Below are positions 32,342 to 39,858 of a stretch of DNA of 64,000 nucleotides, piece after piece. Location of the stretch: positions 1,736,001 through 1,800,000 of the forward strand of contig NC_014098.1 in NCBI RefSeq assembly GCF_000092905.1, written 5' to 3'. Positions within the stretch are counted from its first letter, which is position 1. Each line of letters opens with the position of its first letter. The position numbers were made by a program, and so were the translations under genes. A model generated the notes under the pieces. The model had not been told where the DNA came from and did no database searches. It saw only the letters and a program-made list of their open reading frames with translations. This DNA comes from Kyrpidia tusciae DSM 2912 (GTDB taxonomy: Bacteria; Bacillota; Bacilli; Kyrpidiales; Kyrpidiaceae).

Positions 32342-32791
32342 TCAAATCCAGCGATCCATGGACCGTTCGTACTTCAGCGGGGTTTCCCCGCCGAACCACA
32401 GGGCGATCTCCCTGGCCGCGCTCTCCGGGGAGTCCGAGCCGTGCACCACGTTCATCCCGATGGACAGCGCCAGATCTCCCCGAATCGTCCCCGGCGCCGC
32501 CTCCTGGGGATTGGTTTTTCCCATCATCTGCCGGACCACGGCGATGGCTCCCTGTCCTTCCCACACCATGGCGAATACCGGCCCCGATGTGATGAAGGAC
32601 ACCAGTTCGCCGAAAAATGGTTTGTCCCGGTGTTCTTCATAATGTTTCTCCGCCAACTGCCGGGACACCTGCATCAATTTCGCAGCTACCAACCGCAGGC
32701 CTCGCCGCTCCAACCGAGACACGATATCGCCGATGAGGCCCCGTTGGACGCCGTCGGGTTTAATCATCACAAAGGTCTGTTCCAGTGCCAT
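32342..32791 (-). CDS. ndk: nucleoside diphosphate kinase
   Basis: A 149-aa enzyme that equalises NTP pools by phosphohistidine transfer. [16 protein letters not shown] starts the fold, and [16 protein letters not shown] contains the active-site histidine. ATG 32791 follows GAGGAG. Its place between hepT and cheR is conserved in Bacillus. Confidence 0.96.
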
Positions 32792-32855
32792 GACGTTCAC
32801 TCCTCATCCTGGGTTGAATATCCCCATCTTGTCCAATCTTCTGGAGTACCGCATT

Positions 32856-32961: not shown

Positions 32962-33945
32962 CTACCGGTCTCGGGCGGTCACAAACCCCAGCACCGCCTC
33001 CAGCGCCTCCCGTGCCCATCCATCGGGAAGAGCCGCCAAATCCCGCCGGGCCCAGGTCACGTATCGCTCCGCCACCCGCCGGGCCTCGTCGATCCCCCCG
33101 GACTCCGCCACTGCTCGCACGACCTCCGCCGCATCCTCCTGGGACATGCCGGGGTGAATCCGACCCGCCAAACGCCGACTGGCCGCCTCGTCCCCCGAGG
33201 TCCTCCCGCGCAGCGCGAAAAGTACCGGCAGCGTTAGATTTCCCTGCAGGAGATCACTCCCCACGGGTTTCCCCATAACGGCCTCATCGCCCACTAAATC
33301 CAGCACATCGTCGACAATCTGAAAAGCCATGCCCAGATGCCCCCCAAAGCGCCACAGCGCCCGGGCCGTCTCCTCGTCAGCCTCCGCCGCCCGGGCGCCC
33401 ACCAGGCAACTGACCGCCATCAGGAGGGCTGTCTTTTGCCGGATGCGACGATAATACCGGAAGAGCGGCTGGTCAATCCGGTACAAGTCGTGCATCTGTT
33501 CGAGCTCCCCTTGGCACATCCGGGCGATGGCCCAAGCCGTCACCTCGTGCAACCGCCGGTCTTCCATCTCAGACAAAAGTTCCAGAGCCCGGGCAAACAA
33601 AAAATCCCCGGTGTAAAGGGCCAACTGATCCCCCCATGCCGCTTTCACCGTGGGCCGGCCCCGTCGGGTGTCCGACCGGTCGATCACGTCGTCGTGCACC
33701 AAGGTGGCCATATGAATCATCTCCAGGGCCGCCGCCGCCCGGACCAGGGCCTCGGTGTCCCTTCGGGGGCCAAACCGGCCGGAGACCAGCACCACCAGGG
33801 GCCGCAGGCGCTTTCCCCCCGCCCGAAGAAGATACAAGGAGGCTTCCTGGAGCGCCGGTTCCCGGCTGGCCACTTCCTCTTCCAACAGGTCTTCCACCCG
33901 GCGAAGTTCACCCCGCATCGCTCCGTACAATTCCGTTACTCTCAT
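32962..33945 (-). CDS. hepT: heptaprenyl diphosphate synthase, component II
   Basis: The 327-aa catalytic subunit of the heterodimeric prenyltransferase that builds the menaquinone-7 side chain. Both aspartate-rich motifs are present: LVHDDVIDRSDTRRGRPT and FQIVDDVLDLVGD. GGKRLRPLVVL is also typical. ATG 33945 is preceded by GAGGGGAG. Its partner hepS is 4.4 kb upstream; the menaquinone block sits between them. Confidence 0.94.
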   Translation of the reverse strand: MRVTELYGAMRGELRRVEDLLEEEVASREPALQEASLYLLRAGGKRLRPLVVLVSGRFGPRRDTEALVRAAAALEMIHMATLVHDDVIDRSDTRRGRPTVKAAWGDQLALYTGDFLFARALELLSEMEDRRLHEVTAWAIARMCQGELEQMHDLYRIDQPLFRYYRRIRQKTALLMAVSCLVGARAAEADEETARALWRFGGHLGMAFQIVDDVLDLVGDEAVMGKPVGSDLLQGNLTLPVLFALRGRTSGDEAASRRLAGRIHPGMSQEDAAEVVRAVAESGGIDEARRVAERYVTWARRDLAALPDGWAREALEAVLGFVTARDR

Positions 33946-34026
33946 CCCGCTCCCCTCTGTGCCAGGCCCCGCCACCCGCGGACCTTTGTTGTTCTCGCGC
34001 GGGAAGTCCCGGCCGATCCAGTCCCG

Positions 34027-35106
34027 TCAAAAATACCGGAGGATATCGTAATAGGTGTTTCGCTGGGCCGCCGTCCGCCCGGCGTCCCGGATAAGCCGCA
34101 CGATGTCCTCCCGGGTCATGCGATAATGCGCTCCCGCTGCCCGTACGACATTCTCCTCAATCATGGTGCTGCCGAAATCGTTTACCCCGAATTCCAGCGA
34201 CAGCTGCCCAATCTTCGGCCCCATGGTCACCCAGGACGCCTGGAGGTTCGGGATGTTGTCGATCACCAGCCGGGCAATCGCCACGGTCTTCAAGTATTCC
34301 GCCGCCGTGGCCCGGGTCCCCCGGAGCGCCGTGTTATCGGGCTGGTACGTCCAGGCGATAAAAGCCGTGAATCCCCCGGTTCGATCCTGGGCCTCCCGCA
34401 CCCGGAGCATGTGCAACACCCGCTCCTCGTCGCTCTCCCCGAAACCCACCACCATCGTCGCCGTGGAGGGCATGCCCAGCCGGTGCGCCGTGAGGTGCAC
34501 CTCCATCCAGTCTTCCCAGGTTCCCTTCAATCGGCTAATCCGACGCCGGGTCCGGTTGTCCAGGATCTCCGCCCCGCCCCCGGGCAGAGAGTCCAGCCCC
34601 GCATCCCGGAGGGCCCGCACCACACCCTCCAGGGACAACCCAGAGATCTTTTTCAGATTCTGGATCTCCGCCGAGGAGAAAGAATGCATATGCACCGGGA
34701 ACCTCGCCTTGATCTTCCGCAACAACTCCGTGTACCACTCCAGGGGCAGATCCGGGTGGGTTCCGCCTTGCATCAGGATCTCCGTGCCCCCGAGGCGCAC
34801 CGTCTCTTCGATCTTTTCAAAAATCACCTCGTCCGGCAGGACATAGGCTTCGGGATGGCCCGGCCGCCGGTAAAAAGCGCAAAAGGTACAATACGTATCG
34901 CACACATTGGAATAATTGATGTTGCGATTCACCACAAAGGTCACGACGCCCTCCGGGTGTAGCCTCCGGGACACCTCTCGGGCCGCCCGGCCCAGGGCCA
35001 CGATGTCCGCCGATTCATACAGCCGAACCCCGTCCTCCAGGGTCAACCGCTCCCCGGAAAGCGCTTTGTTCAGAATCTCCTCCGCCGCCCCCGTCCGCAC
35101 CAACAT
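34027..35106 (-). CDS. mqnC: cyclic dehypoxanthinyl futalosine synthase (radical SAM)
   Basis: A 359-aa radical SAM enzyme of the futalosine menaquinone route, cyclising dehypoxanthine futalosine. The iron-sulfur motif CDTYCTFC follows VNRNINYSNV; then GGTHPDLPLEWY, LPGGGAEIL and RLVIDNIPNLQASW match the family. The ATG shares one base with the mqnA stop (TGATG), with GGGGGG 7 nt upstream. CofH-like enzymes share the fold, but the menaquinone neighbours favour MqnC. Confidence 0.92.
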   Translation of the reverse strand: MLVRTGAAEEILNKALSGERLTLEDGVRLYESADIVALGRAAREVSRRLHPEGVVTFVVNRNINYSNVCDTYCTFCAFYRRPGHPEAYVLPDEVIFEKIEETVRLGGTEILMQGGTHPDLPLEWYTELLRKIKARFPVHMHSFSSAEIQNLKKISGLSLEGVVRALRDAGLDSLPGGGAEILDNRTRRRISRLKGTWEDWMEVHLTAHRLGMPSTATMVVGFGESDEERVLHMLRVREAQDRTGGFTAFIAWTYQPDNTALRGTRATAAEYLKTVAIARLVIDNIPNLQASWVTMGPKIGQLSLEFGVNDFGSTMIEENVVRAAGAHYRMTREDIVRLIRDAGRTAAQRNTYYDILRYF

Positions 35107-35924
35107 CAGAGATCCCCCCATAACTGAACCCGGGCGGCTGTTGGCAAAAGCCCCAGGTCGTGCGCTTCTTGGTAGTAGCGATGAAGTCCGTCCAAAAGAT
35201 CCTCCCCCAGATCATAGGACAGACACCGATAATAGTCCCGCCAAAACTGCTCCTCCCCGCCGCAGAAATCGGCGGCAGCCCGGATCACCGCGTCAATCTC
35301 CCGCAGACCCCGATCCCGGGCCTCCCGAAAGGTCCGGTGCACCGAATGGAGCAACTCCGGAGCTTCCTCCGCCACCGCCCTGCGCACCGCCCACACTGCG
35401 AACACCATGCCAAGCCCTGTCCATTCCCACCACGCTTCACCGAGATCCAACATCATCAGACCCCGGGGGTTCAAGACTGCCTCCAGGGCATCGTCTCCGA
35501 TCAAAAGAGCGGCGTCCGCCCGCTCCAACATTCGGTCTAAATCTGGATCCATCGTAACATATTTGGGAGCAATCTCAAACCGCCGGGCAAACAAGATCTT
35601 AAGTAACCGCACGGACGTGGCGGAGCTGGAAGTCAGTGCCACCGTCCGGCCGTGAAGGGACGGAATCGGCAGGGTCGACACGAGAAAAATCGAACCCACC
35701 GGCCCCCGGCTGCTCACCGACAAATCCCTCAGCACCACGTAGCGCTCCGGGTGCAGCCCGTAGGCAAAACTGGACACCGGGCCCAGATCCACGGCTCCTT
35801 CTTCCAACCAAGCGTTGAGCTGACTGGGGACAGCCGGTTTAAACTCCACCCGATCATGCTCAAAGAAGTGATACACTGGCAAAATGTTCGCATACTGGAT
35901 GCGACCGATCCGCAGGACCTCCAT
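35106..35924 (-). CDS. mqnA: chorismate dehydratase
   Basis: A 272-aa periplasmic-binding-protein-like enzyme that converts chorismate to 3-enolpyruvylbenzoate, committing it to the futalosine pathway. RIGRIQYANILPVYHFFE, VPSQLNAWLEEGAVDLGPVSSFAYG and LIGDDAL are recognisable MqnA segments. Its ATG overlaps the stop of the upstream radical-SAM-like gene (TGATG), and its own stop overlaps mqnC. This tight coupling marks one operon. Confidence 0.92.
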   Translation of the reverse strand: MEVLRIGRIQYANILPVYHFFEHDRVEFKPAVPSQLNAWLEEGAVDLGPVSSFAYGLHPERYVVLRDLSVSSRGPVGSIFLVSTLPIPSLHGRTVALTSSSATSVRLLKILFARRFEIAPKYVTMDPDLDRMLERADAALLIGDDALEAVLNPRGLMMLDLGEAWWEWTGLGMVFAVWAVRRAVAEEAPELLHSVHRTFREARDRGLREIDAVIRAAADFCGGEEQFWRDYYRCLSYDLGEDLLDGLHRYYQEAHDLGLLPTAARVQLWGDL

Positions 35925-36892
35925 CACGCCGCCCCCTGTTTTGGACCTTTTAGGTCCCCATCTCCTGCCCACACCGGCAAAAGACCCGTCTCCCGGACCA
36001 GCCGTTCCGCCTGGTCGGGATCGCCGATCTCCGGCCCGGATAGGGGCGATGGTTCATCCCAGCACCGCCACGGGGCCCCCGACAGACTGTCCGCGCCAAA
36101 GCGCAGGGCCGTTTGGGCGAGTTTCTCATCCCCCGCTCTCCAGGACACCTCGAGATGCACGGCGGGAAAAACGAGCCGGGCTGCGGCCAACGTCAACAAA
36201 TCCTCTAAACCGGTGGTCGGAGGCAGGTCCAGCCGATCGCCCAAGGGCCAACGCACCGGATCCCAAGGCTCTAACCGGACCAACGCTAAGCGCCCTTCCG
36301 AAGCCCACTGCCGAAGCCGAGGCCAGGCGCGCACCCGGGCCTCCCGGGTCTCTCCAGCCCCGTAGCGTAGAACCACGTGACTTGCCATTCCCCGTTCGTG
36401 CGCCCTTCGGTGCACCTCAAACCAGTCGTCCAACGGGAGGACCGGCCGGCTCCGGCGCCAACCCTCGTCGAGGACCTCGGCATCCTCTCCCCGAAGGAAA
36501 TCGATCCCCGCCTCTTTCAGGCGGCCGAGCACCTCCGTCACCCGCTGCAGATTCCCTTGTGCCCATCGCCAAACATCCCCGGCCGACGGCCCGCTGAGAC
36601 TTCCCCGAAACCCAGCCATCCGAACCTCCGCCGAGCGCTTAAGAATCGCAGCCTCTTCTTCCCCGACCGAGTCGAGAACCACACTCCTGGGGAACTCCTC
36701 CCGGCCTTCCGCCGGCACGTACCGGTTCAGTGCCGGTGTCGCCGCCGGTTCGCGCCCCGGTCCTGTGGATATCCAAAAGCGTTCCATGAGGAACACCCGG
36801 TCCCCAAATCCCTCGGTTTTGACCCGGTGGGCCTCCGCCCCTAGATCCAGGACATCCCGGTCGAAAAGTGACCATAATTCACGTTCTGTCAA
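35924..36892 (-). CDS. MqnE/MqnC-like protein that has lost the radical-SAM cysteine motif
   Basis: From TTG 36892 (behind GGGGAGGAGG) the product is 322 aa. It aligns with the neighbouring MqnC along most of its length: LTERELWSLFDRDVLDLGAEAHRV; LKEAGIDFLRGEDAEVLDEG; DDWFEVHRRAHERGMASHVV; TTGLEDLLTLAAARLVF; LAQTALRFGADSLSG. Where MqnE/MqnC carry the CxxxCxxC cluster, this protein has ERFWISTGPGREP and no cysteine; only one Cys occurs in the whole chain. It therefore cannot bind the iron-sulfur cluster in the usual way. The frame overlaps ubiX by 14 bp and mqnA by 1 bp. A scaffold or regulatory role is inferred. Confidence 0.75.
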   Translation of the reverse strand: MTERELWSLFDRDVLDLGAEAHRVKTEGFGDRVFLMERFWISTGPGREPAATPALNRYVPAEGREEFPRSVVLDSVGEEEAAILKRSAEVRMAGFRGSLSGPSAGDVWRWAQGNLQRVTEVLGRLKEAGIDFLRGEDAEVLDEGWRRSRPVLPLDDWFEVHRRAHERGMASHVVLRYGAGETREARVRAWPRLRQWASEGRLALVRLEPWDPVRWPLGDRLDLPPTTGLEDLLTLAAARLVFPAVHLEVSWRAGDEKLAQTALRFGADSLSGAPWRCWDEPSPLSGPEIGDPDQAERLVRETGLLPVWAGDGDLKGPKQGAA

Positions 36893-37526
36893 CTTCCCCC
36901 ACCTCCTCCCCGGTACTTCCCCAGCGCCGAAACAGCCCGTGCGGCAATCGAAGTTGGTCAAGAATCTTCCCCACCACAAAATCCACCAAATCCATCAAAG
37001 TTTCCGGACGGTGATAAAACCCGGGCATCGCCGGGACAATTCTGGCCCCGGCCCGGGCCGCCCGGACCATATTTTCCAGGTGGATCAGATGAAGGGGCGT
37101 TTCCCGGGGGACCAAGATGAGCGGCCGTCCCTCCTTCAGGTGGGTATCGGCCGCCCTCTCCAACAGGTTGTCCGAAGCCCCACTGGCCACCGCCGCCAGG
37201 GTCCCCATGCTGCACGGGACGATGACCATGGCCCGGGTCAAATAGGAACCGCTCGCCACCGGAGCTGAAAAATCCCCGAGGTCGTGCACCGACACCCGGT
37301 CCGAAGCAATTCCGGCTTTCTCCCGGAACAGTGGCCAGTCACCGGCTTTGACGGGCCACCCCATCTCCAGGCGCAGGACTTCCCAGGCCGCTCCGGAGAT
37401 CAGAAGGTGGACCCTTTGGTTCAACCGGACCAGCTCCTGCAGCAAACGAACGGCATACACCGCGCCGCTGGCCCCGGTCATGCCCACCACCACAGGCAGA
37501 TCTTTTTCCACTTGCTCCCTCGTCAT
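36879..37526 (-). CDS. ubiX: UbiX-family flavin prenyltransferase
   Basis: The 215-aa protein has the UbiX signature VVGMTGASGAVYAVRLLQEL, then YLTRAMVIVPCSMGTLAAVASGASDNLLERAADTHLKEGRPLILVPRETPL. It makes prenylated FMN for a UbiD-type decarboxylase. In futalosine organisms a UbiX/UbiD pair serves the late decarboxylation step; no ubiD is in this window. ATG 37526 has GGAG 8 nt upstream; ATG 37532 is an alternative. Confidence 0.92.
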   Translation of the reverse strand: MTREQVEKDLPVVVGMTGASGAVYAVRLLQELVRLNQRVHLLISGAAWEVLRLEMGWPVKAGDWPLFREKAGIASDRVSVHDLGDFSAPVASGSYLTRAMVIVPCSMGTLAAVASGASDNLLERAADTHLKEGRPLILVPRETPLHLIHLENMVRAARAGARIVPAMPGFYHRPETLMDLVDFVVGKILDQLRLPHGLFRRWGSTGEEVGEVDRT

Positions 37527-37595
37527 CCGCATCGCTCCGATTCCCGGCTCCCCCGGACATCTTCCCTTTTCATGCCGCCGCCATCGGCGCAAAGC

Positions 37596-38381
37596 TCACT
37601 TCTCGACATCCGCTGCCCGGGATGGAGCTGCATCCGCCTCCGAGGCAACACCCTTCGGTTTGCGCCCGATGTGAAGGGCGGCCACGCCTCCGGAGAACCT
37701 CCAGAACCGCACCTCTTCAAGCCCGACCTCCCGAAACACCTGGGCCAGTTCTTCCGCCCCCGGAAAATGGGTCAGGGAATTGGGCAGGTACTGATAGGCC
37801 GGCGCTCCTTCTCCCACGAGCAGCCGGGCCACAAAGGGCATGACCTTGTAAAAATAAAAGTAATACACCGTGCGAAAGGGCTCCCATGTGGGCTTGGACA
37901 ACTCCAAGGACACCACCAATCCCCCGGGTTTGACCACCCGGGTCATTTCCCGCAGTACTTGGCGATAATCCTTGACATTGCGGAGCGCAAAACCGATCGT
38001 GGCAAAATCAAAGGTGTTTTGCGAATAGGGCAGTTCCATGGCATCTCCTAACACTAACGATGTCTGCCGGCCGACCCCTTCCCGGCTCACCTTCTCCTTG
38101 GCCACATCGAGCATCTCTCGACAAAAATCGAGCCCCACGACCCGGCCCTCGGCCCCCGCCGCTTTCGCCAAGGCCACAGTCCAATCCCCGGTACCCGCCG
38201 CCACATCCAACACCTGGGCCCCGGGGAACACCGCCATCTGTTTCATCGTAAAGGCTCGCCACGCTTTGTGGCGCTGAAAACTGATCAAATCGTTCATCCG
38301 GTCATAGTACCGGGCGATCCGGGAAAAGATCGACTGAACCAGTTCGACTTTGCTCGGCTGTTGGTTTGACTGATTCGGCAA
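37596..38381 (-). CDS. ubiE: demethylmenaquinone C-methyltransferase
   Basis: The 261-aa UbiE/MenG enzyme performs the last step of menaquinone synthesis, SAM-dependent C-methylation. FSRIARYYDRMNDLISFQRHKAWR, VLDVAAGTGDWTVALA and TFDFATIGFALRNVKDY are diagnostic. It is 3 bp after hepS, matching hepS-ubiE-hepT of Bacillus. The last 25 residues (Ala/Asp/Glu-rich) are a non-conserved tail. Confidence 0.95.
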   Translation of the reverse strand: MPNQSNQQPSKVELVQSIFSRIARYYDRMNDLISFQRHKAWRAFTMKQMAVFPGAQVLDVAAGTGDWTVALAKAAGAEGRVVGLDFCREMLDVAKEKVSREGVGRQTSLVLGDAMELPYSQNTFDFATIGFALRNVKDYRQVLREMTRVVKPGGLVVSLELSKPTWEPFRTVYYFYFYKVMPFVARLLVGEGAPAYQYLPNSLTHFPGAEELAQVFREVGLEEVRFWRFSGGVAALHIGRKPKGVASEADAAPSRAADVEK

Positions 38382-38384
38382 TCG

Positions 38385-39233
38385 TTACCTCTCCTTCGCC
38401 ACGGGCACCCAGGATGCCCAGGCCGCTTCCCACTCGGAACACATCCTCTCCAACCCCTCGGCCCCTAACCGGGGAAGGGATGCAAGCCGACTCCTGATCA
38501 AACTGCAAACCTCCGTCAACTGGTCGGTCACCCAATCCCCGGCATTGTATTTTGCGTAGAGCGCCCGCACCCGACCGCTGGACCGCTCCGACTCCTCAAG
38601 AGCCCGCCGTTCCTCCGCTGTGGTGGAAGCCCAGACATACAAGTCCATCAGAGAGGGCAGCGCGCCCCCGTGGCCCCATTCCCCGCCCCGGACCAGAGCA
38701 AAGCCGCGCCCGGCGGCCCGTACTATCTCTGGCCAAGGATCCCGCAGGGAAAGCCCGCTCAACAGTCCGCGAACAACCCCGGTTTCGATCTCCGCGCACA
38801 AGGCCCCATACCCCTCGGGATCCTCCTCCCACTGCCAGGACCGCCGCCGCACCTTGAGCTCATTCACCCGGCGCACTCCGCCCGAGAGCACGCCCACCAG
38901 AGACACCAACCCATACTTCGCCAAGAGCAGGTAATATTTACTGCTGAAAAAGTCCCCCGCCAACACCGTCGTTGCCGACACTCCGCCGCCGCCCGGCTGA
39001 GCGCGCTCCACCTCGTGCACCTCCAGCCCCCGGTGCACCAGATACACCGCTGCGGCCACCGCCGCCCGAAGCGCCGGACCCAGTCCGGCCGACGCCCCCA
39101 TGCTCCAGATCAACCAAATCAACGAGCGATCCAACGGCTCCGATGACCACTGGCAAAGCTCAGGGTGGTTCATCTCCCCGGCGATCATTTTCTCGATACT
39201 GCCCATCTCCATTTCCCAGTCTGGCATCAGCAC
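38385..39233 (-). CDS. hepS: heptaprenyl diphosphate synthase, component I
   Basis: The 282-aa accessory subunit that sets chain length in the HepS-HepT synthase. These subunits diverge strongly, but TTVLAGDFFSSKYYLLLAKYG is the well-kept signature. Position between mtrB and ubiE is also as expected. The start is unsure: GTG 39233, ATG 39227 and ATGs up to ten codons downstream are possible, and no strong ribosome-binding site decides. Confidence 0.88.
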   Translation of the reverse strand: MLMPDWEMEMGSIEKMIAGEMNHPELCQWSSEPLDRSLIWLIWSMGASAGLGPALRAAVAAAVYLVHRGLEVHEVERAQPGGGGVSATTVLAGDFFSSKYYLLLAKYGLVSLVGVLSGGVRRVNELKVRRRSWQWEEDPEGYGALCAEIETGVVRGLLSGLSLRDPWPEIVRAAGRGFALVRGGEWGHGGALPSLMDLYVWASTTAEERRALEESERSSGRVRALYAKYNAGDWVTDQLTEVCSLIRSRLASLPRLGAEGLERMCSEWEAAWASWVPVAKER

Positions 39234-39396: not shown

Positions 39397-39858
39397 TTAT
39401 TGTTGATGAAAACGATGTTGTACGAAGGCCGGAACGGCGTCGGTTCCGGGCGGAGGCCCGTGATCCAAGGCGGGGCGGTCGGCCGTATAGGTGCGCACCA
39501 CCCGGCCCGACGCGTCTATCAAGTCAATCCTGGCACGATCCACCCCTTCTGCATCCACCAAAAAGGTGTAGGCCAGCGCGTACACATCCTGGATGGCCGA
39601 CCCATCCCCTCCCCCGCCGGGCTCTGCCAACTCGACGGAGATAGTACCCGGAGACCAATCGACTTTTTCCAGCCGCCCCCGAAGGACAAGCCCATCCAGA
39701 CGGTCCACCGCCGCCGTCAACGAATCCACCCGGCCCGGCCGATGCCACAGCACTGGAAGAGAACCGTCGGCGAACCGATCGAACGCCCGCTGGGGAATCG
39801 CCGCCAGCACCCCCGCCGCGGCAAACGCCGCCACCGCGATCCACCACCAACTTCTCAT
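39397..39858 (-). CDS. hypothetical membrane-anchored or secreted protein
   Basis: A 153-aa protein beginning MRSWWWIAVAAFAAAGVLAAIP, a signal peptide or single anchor. The remaining 125 residues form a domain I do not recognise, with a possible helix (VDSLTAAVDRLDGLVLRGRLE) and beta segments. It lies between mtrB and hepS, where B. subtilis has no gene. Overlap and codon use look genuine. A role cannot be assigned. Confidence 0.65.
   Translation of the reverse strand: MRSWWWIAVAAFAAAGVLAAIPQRAFDRFADGSLPVLWHRPGRVDSLTAAVDRLDGLVLRGRLEKVDWSPGTISVELAEPGGGGDGSAIQDVYALAYTFLVDAEGVDRARIDLIDASGRVVRTYTADRPALDHGPPPGTDAVPAFVQHRFHQQ

Follow-up and report, generated by a model that had tools for sequence, protein, structure and literature searches.

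Some pseudoenzymes serve as partners for active paralogues, and such proteins form a general class; conserved radical-SAM pseudoenzymes in operons of primary metabolism have apparently been described only rarely. The described enzymes closest to the case reported here are two radical-SAM enzymes of menaquinone synthesis, MqnE (TIGR03700; 6XI9 and 6XIG, from Pedobacter heparinus) and MqnC (TIGR03699). Kyrpidia, the source of the DNA studied, is a small bacterial group of thermoacidophiles. We found no earlier description of a cluster-less MqnE, or of any conserved radical-SAM pseudoenzyme for menaquinone, in the open-licence literature. Kyrpidia tusciae produces MK-7 (PMC3236038), and for Firmicutes that lack mqnD a phosphorylase-family protein, MqnZ, was proposed earlier (PMC4746308). 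Here, we analyze a gene of K. tusciae DSM 2912, called X, that lies in a menaquinone operon within a 64-kb stretch (the window; G000:C1:1736001-1800000) of the complete, 3.38-Mb host genome.

Results

Organization of the operon that contains X

X lies on the minus strand in the gene order hepS1-ubiE-ubiX-X-mqnA-mqnC-hepT-ndk, which mtrB precedes. The features of the region, in window coordinates, are as follows.

38385..39233, minus strand: putative heptaprenyl diphosphate synthase component I (hepS1), assigned without a profile from its position and conserved synteny
37596..38381, minus strand: ubiE/menG-type methyltransferase of the X operon, assigned by sequence recognition and conserved synteny, no profile
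36879..37592, minus strand: ubiX-family flavin prenyltransferase
36893..36922, minus strand: ribosome-binding region (AGGAGG), 5' of the TTG start of X
35924..36892, minus strand: X, cluster-less MqnE-derived protein and probable pseudoenzyme, 322 aa, TTG start
35106..35924, minus strand: mqnA, 273 aa from the ATG at 35924, PF02621 at 2e-74
34027..35121, minus strand: mqnC, with CDTYCTFC as its CxxxCxxC motif and a TIGR03699 score above the cut-off
32962..33975, minus strand: polyprenyl diphosphate synthase component II (hepT), assigned by sequence recognition and synteny
32342..32800, minus strand: ndk, which closes the conserved block at its 3' end

A preliminary description of this DNA had reported an open frame of 322 codons with a strong ribosome-binding site and overlaps with both neighboring genes. 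All of this was confirmed: the frame runs from a TTG start to a stop at 35924, the 3' end of ubiX and X overlap by 14 bases, and the TGA stop of X shares one base with the ATG of mqnA (TGATG). The sequence AGGAGG or GGGAGGG, together with TTGACAGAA, is conserved upstream of X in all four members of its family. The family also shares the start codon, the ribosome-binding site, and the overlap between the stop of X and the start of mqnA, and this overlap is found also in canonical mqnE operons and in G037, a genome of another family. Between mtrB and hepS1, a small gene (39397-39858, minus strand) is conserved in the four genomes of the GTDB family of X (f1), with 52 to 97% identity and dN/dS values of 0.11 to 0.31.

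An overlap kept this widely would be expected if X were retained only as a translational relay coupled to mqnA. However, in those genomes without an in-operon mqnE that were inspected, ubiX lies immediately next to mqnA or overlaps it, which shows that a spacer gene is dispensable, and the amino acids of X are under selection (see below). A role solely as a relay therefore seems remote.

X is related to MqnE and MqnC and has lost the cluster

When compared with NCBIfam, X matched the MqnC model TIGR03699 (5e-20, 71.5 bits) and the MqnE model TIGR03700 (1e-19, 70.3 bits); both scores are far below the cut-offs of 428 and 435 (434.55), respectively, and the match is confined to residues 100 to 273. 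No Pfam family, Radical_SAM (PF04055) included, matched X at an E value of 1 or less. The similarity to MqnE/MqnC is solid over residues ~100 to 307 and weak over residues 1 to 40, and residues 41 to 95, which correspond to the former cluster loop, gave no reliable alignment; in the X orthologue of G003, the match to in-operon MqnE profiles runs to residue ~308. Homology to MqnC/MqnE, as first described, thus stands, but its claimed extent over nearly the whole length does not.

The CxxxCxxC motif is absent from X and from its orthologues in all four genomes, so the loss noted initially is shared by close relatives. The single remaining cysteine was also confirmed, but this residue, C277, is not conserved and is R in two of the three orthologues. 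At 99 positions that are near-invariant among canonical MqnE-type proteins of Bacilli, X and its orthologues keep 30 residues, change 60, and delete 9, and all three cluster cysteines are among those lost. The canonical GG motifs are altered, with GGGAE replaced by RGDDAE or RGEDAE and VGG lost, and 53 new invariant positions have appeared across the four orthologues. Lacking the iron-sulfur site and most active-site residues, X is probably a helper rather than an enzyme, and its sequence makes it very likely that the protein is noncatalytic.

A noncatalytic X might be a ligand-binding regulator: its barrel would still bind a metabolite of the pathway or else a SAM-like nucleoside, and X would control flux or the activity of a neighbor. 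Residues H161, H165, Y177, E181, R239, H246, and Q260 are kept in all four orthologues, charged and aromatic residues of the barrel half are numerous among the new invariant positions, and a barrel fold is predicted for X. On the other hand, with the canonical GG motifs changed, the cluster loop gone, and no fused regulatory domain present, we consider such a regulator unlikely. The best PDB match of the AlphaFold (AF2) model of X (pLDDT 80.8, pTM 0.83) was MqnE 6xig, with a TM score of 0.75; this fold match is partly built in, because canonical MqnE was present in the alignment from which the model was made.

X is under purifying selection

X is found at the same operon position in four genomes of f1, the window genome included; these are two complete genomes and two MAGs, and two of the four are nearly identical. 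Compared with the window protein, the orthologues show identities of 98, 59, and 55% within the aligned part. Among public contigs, the closest named relatives are "Kyrpidia sp. Bu79" and "Alicyclobacillaceae Bu37." A search of public contigs with X alone returned nothing, a search with the alignment of the four X sequences returned only the two known MAGs, and no further full-length relative of X was present among 300 genomes of the class.

In three divergent pairs, for which synonymous distances are saturating, dN/dS of X was 0.21 to 0.25, indicating that the gene is not decaying. The corresponding values for the neighbors were 0.12 to 0.18 (mqnA and ubiX), 0.14 to 0.25 (hepS1), and ~0.05 (mqnC); constraint on X is looser than that on mqnC and on the MqnE-type genes E1 and E2 described below (about 0.05 to 0.07) and also looser than that on mqnA (0.12 to 0.17). 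Between G000 and G002, X is 52 to 58% identical, compared to 81 to 91% for mqnA/mqnC. Residues 41 to 60, at the site of the former cluster loop, form the least conserved stretch (15 to 25%), while residues 201 to 280 are the best conserved (60 to 90% identical), which places the constraint away from the old active site; conservation is also low at the C-terminal end. No stops or frameshifts were found in the four genomes, and the agreement of two complete genomes with two MAGs rules out sequencing error.

A slowly eroding relic that does nothing but occupy the operon would also evolve faster than its neighbors, as X does, and would also have poorly conserved segments such as residues 41 to 60 and the C-terminal end. 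Given the dN/dS values, the intact frames, and the conserved start codon, ribosome-binding site, and coupling, this explanation is nevertheless very unlikely. A decaying pseudogene, in particular, was rejected on the basis of dN/dS (about 0.22) and the open frame in four genomes. We found no cysteine-bearing orthologues, no sequencing error, and no dN/dS near 1, so the initial statement that X is not decaying was borne out. X thus combines homology to an enzyme family with a loss of catalytic residues that is conserved under purifying selection. Together with the operon position and the cluster-bearing MqnE-type genes found elsewhere in the genome, these results support the initial view of X as a pseudoenzyme.

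X probably originated from the in-operon mqnE and has a counterpart in a second family

In G016, G021, and G041, which have the same gene order, the position of X is occupied by an MqnE with CxxxCxxC, and an equivalent arrangement is seen in the genomes of family f36. The profile of in-operon MqnE outscored those of E1, E2, and MqnC on every cluster-less protein. In the tree, the branch leading to X was very long (4.7 changes per column) and the parent MqnE branch was not separated; AU tests rejected none of the placements of X. Since the trees gave no resolution, we base the origin of X on operon position and profile scores, which make it very likely that X descends directly from the in-operon mqnE of this lineage.

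G037 provided a second cluster-less case. At the same operon position (L080:7025-7657, minus strand), it encodes a 210-aa cluster-less version of MqnE (TIGR03700 2e-32) that retains the N-terminal cap and the C-terminal half, with the cluster/SAM core deleted. Its AlphaFold model, which is a confident one (pLDDT 84, pTM 0.84), best matched MqnE, a match that, as for X, is partly built in by the canonical MqnE in the alignment. G037 also carries E1, E2, and mqnC, and it was the only genome among 399 Bacilli with such a short cluster-less version of MqnE; cluster-less forms are thus known only from the four f1 genomes and from G037. The cap is preserved in both X and the G037 protein, as is the segment surrounding DEKLxQTALxFGxD. 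The losses in G037 and f1 may or may not represent a single event.

E2 and the canonical in-operon mqnE exclude each other

The preliminary description raised the question of a canonical mqnE elsewhere in the genome, and two MqnE-type genes were found. E1 (G000:C1:508123-509226; L035:8121-9227, minus strand) encodes an MqnE-type radical-SAM protein with the motif CHLSCKLC, and E2 (G000:C1:1491070-1492134; L036:8068-9237, minus strand) encodes an MqnE-type protein with CEAHCGFC (family motif, CEAHCxFC). At 465 and 463 bits, respectively, both are above the MqnE cut-off. With E1, E2, and mqnC all present, X is not needed as an aminofutalosine synthase. The earlier suggestion of a replacement enzyme for aminofutalosine synthesis is therefore disfavored, also because conservation of X is lowest where the cluster loop has been replaced.

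Among 80 Bacilli genomes, 12 have a canonical in-operon mqnE and 65 have E2, with no overlap between the two sets, and cluster-less forms were found only in E2-bearing genomes. This mutual exclusion suggests that one MqnE was displaced by the other. Most simply, E2 would have displaced the in-operon MqnE as the working enzyme, and most E2 lineages would afterwards have lost the in-operon gene altogether. Many E2 genomes have no cluster-less MqnE of any kind, and the protein is thus not generally needed.

E1 is found almost exclusively in genomes without mqnB and mqnD

mqnB and mqnD occur together, in the same 53 of the 80 genomes. Of the 24 genomes that encode E1, 23 have neither mqnB nor mqnD; 52 genomes possess mqnB/mqnD and no E1 (Fisher p 6e-15, kinship not corrected for). 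The exchange of E1 for mqnB/mqnD recurs inside families f12, f14, f18, and f22. Four genomes have none of the three genes: one is a fragmented draft, and each of the others contains a single radical-SAM match. MenD was not found above the cut-off in any of the genomes tested. The near restriction of E1 to genomes without mqnB/mqnD suggests a menaquinone route free of both and makes E1 a candidate for the steps downstream of aminofutalosine. No mention of E1 was found in the open-licence literature.

Several individual genomes may be recorded here. G108 is the sole genome that has mqnB/mqnD together with an E1-type protein, the weakest of its kind (58% identity). The f14 genomes G067 and G081 (L106, L104, L151, and L152) have intact in-operon mqnE, mqnC, and E1 and no mqnB/mqnD; in G016, of the same genus, mqnB/mqnD are present and E1 is absent. 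In G085 (C94:31237-32072), the match to mqnD is split in two and contains an in-frame TAG, reflecting either decay or a sequencing error.

X itself could be a replacement enzyme that uses its barrel for a cluster-free reaction, for example, a step left by the missing mqnB/mqnD. The f1 genomes do lack mqnB, mqnD, and MenD above the cut-off, yet K. tusciae makes MK-7, and the new invariant residues of X would fit a new activity. However, at least 19 other E1-carrying genomes without mqnB/mqnD (about 19 in the class survey) have no full-length match to X, the loss of mqnB/mqnD is tracked far better by E1, and the stretch of X that faces the old active site is its least conserved. We therefore rejected the filling of the mqnB/mqnD gap by X as the main reading and consider a replacement enzyme improbable.

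Discussion

The explanation that we favor, and to which we give an even chance, is that E2 took over catalysis and that the former in-operon MqnE persisted as a noncatalytic protein, probably as a partner of menaquinone enzymes. The unlinked MqnE-type E2, perhaps helped by E1, would have taken over aminofutalosine synthesis, and the in-operon MqnE would then have lost its [4Fe-4S] cluster together with most of the residues for SAM and substrate. X would have remained in the operon, still translated and under selection, as a noncatalytic barrel protein that binds one or more of the menaquinone enzymes E2, E1, MqnC, and MqnA; it could, for instance, form a heteromer as the inactive member or serve as a scaffold that passes on labile intermediates. 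Retention of the cap and the C-terminal half, with the active-site loop free to vary, fits protein binding better than a new active site. The role as a subunit or scaffold that the preliminary description suggested would agree with these observations. Taken by itself, the proposal that X is a protein partner of menaquinone enzymes is a serious one, if slightly short of an even chance. Judged from sequence data, a partner or scaffold would rank first and ligand sensing second, with a new enzyme, a relic, or a translational relay lower. A bolder version, which we consider doubtful at best, is that an unreported, mqnB/mqnD-free menaquinone route of Bacilli, with E2, E1, and MqnC as its three radical-SAM enzymes, requires X as a subunit, and that in Kyrpidia X keeps E1 or E2 active in a complex with MqnA/MqnC.

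Loss of the catalytic core at one operon position in two families, with the cap and C-terminal half kept, points to a noncatalytic role for the MqnE fold. The survey also draws attention to genomes that lack mqnB/mqnD and are relatives of menaquinone makers, and it names E1 as a candidate for the missing steps.

X resembles MqnE in its operon position in related Bacilli and in its homologous C-terminal half, and its predicted barrel would be homologous as well. Unlike MqnE, it has no CxxxCxxC, has 69 of the 99 near-invariant residues changed or deleted, and scores 70 bits against a cut-off of 435. Its barrel half is similar to MqnC at a comparable sequence level (E value, 5e-20), but X differs from MqnC in having no cluster motif and in being fitted better by the in-operon MqnE profile, and a canonical mqnC lies two genes downstream. 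With partner pseudoenzymes, X shares the state of a selected, probably inactive homologue beside active paralogues of the same pathway.
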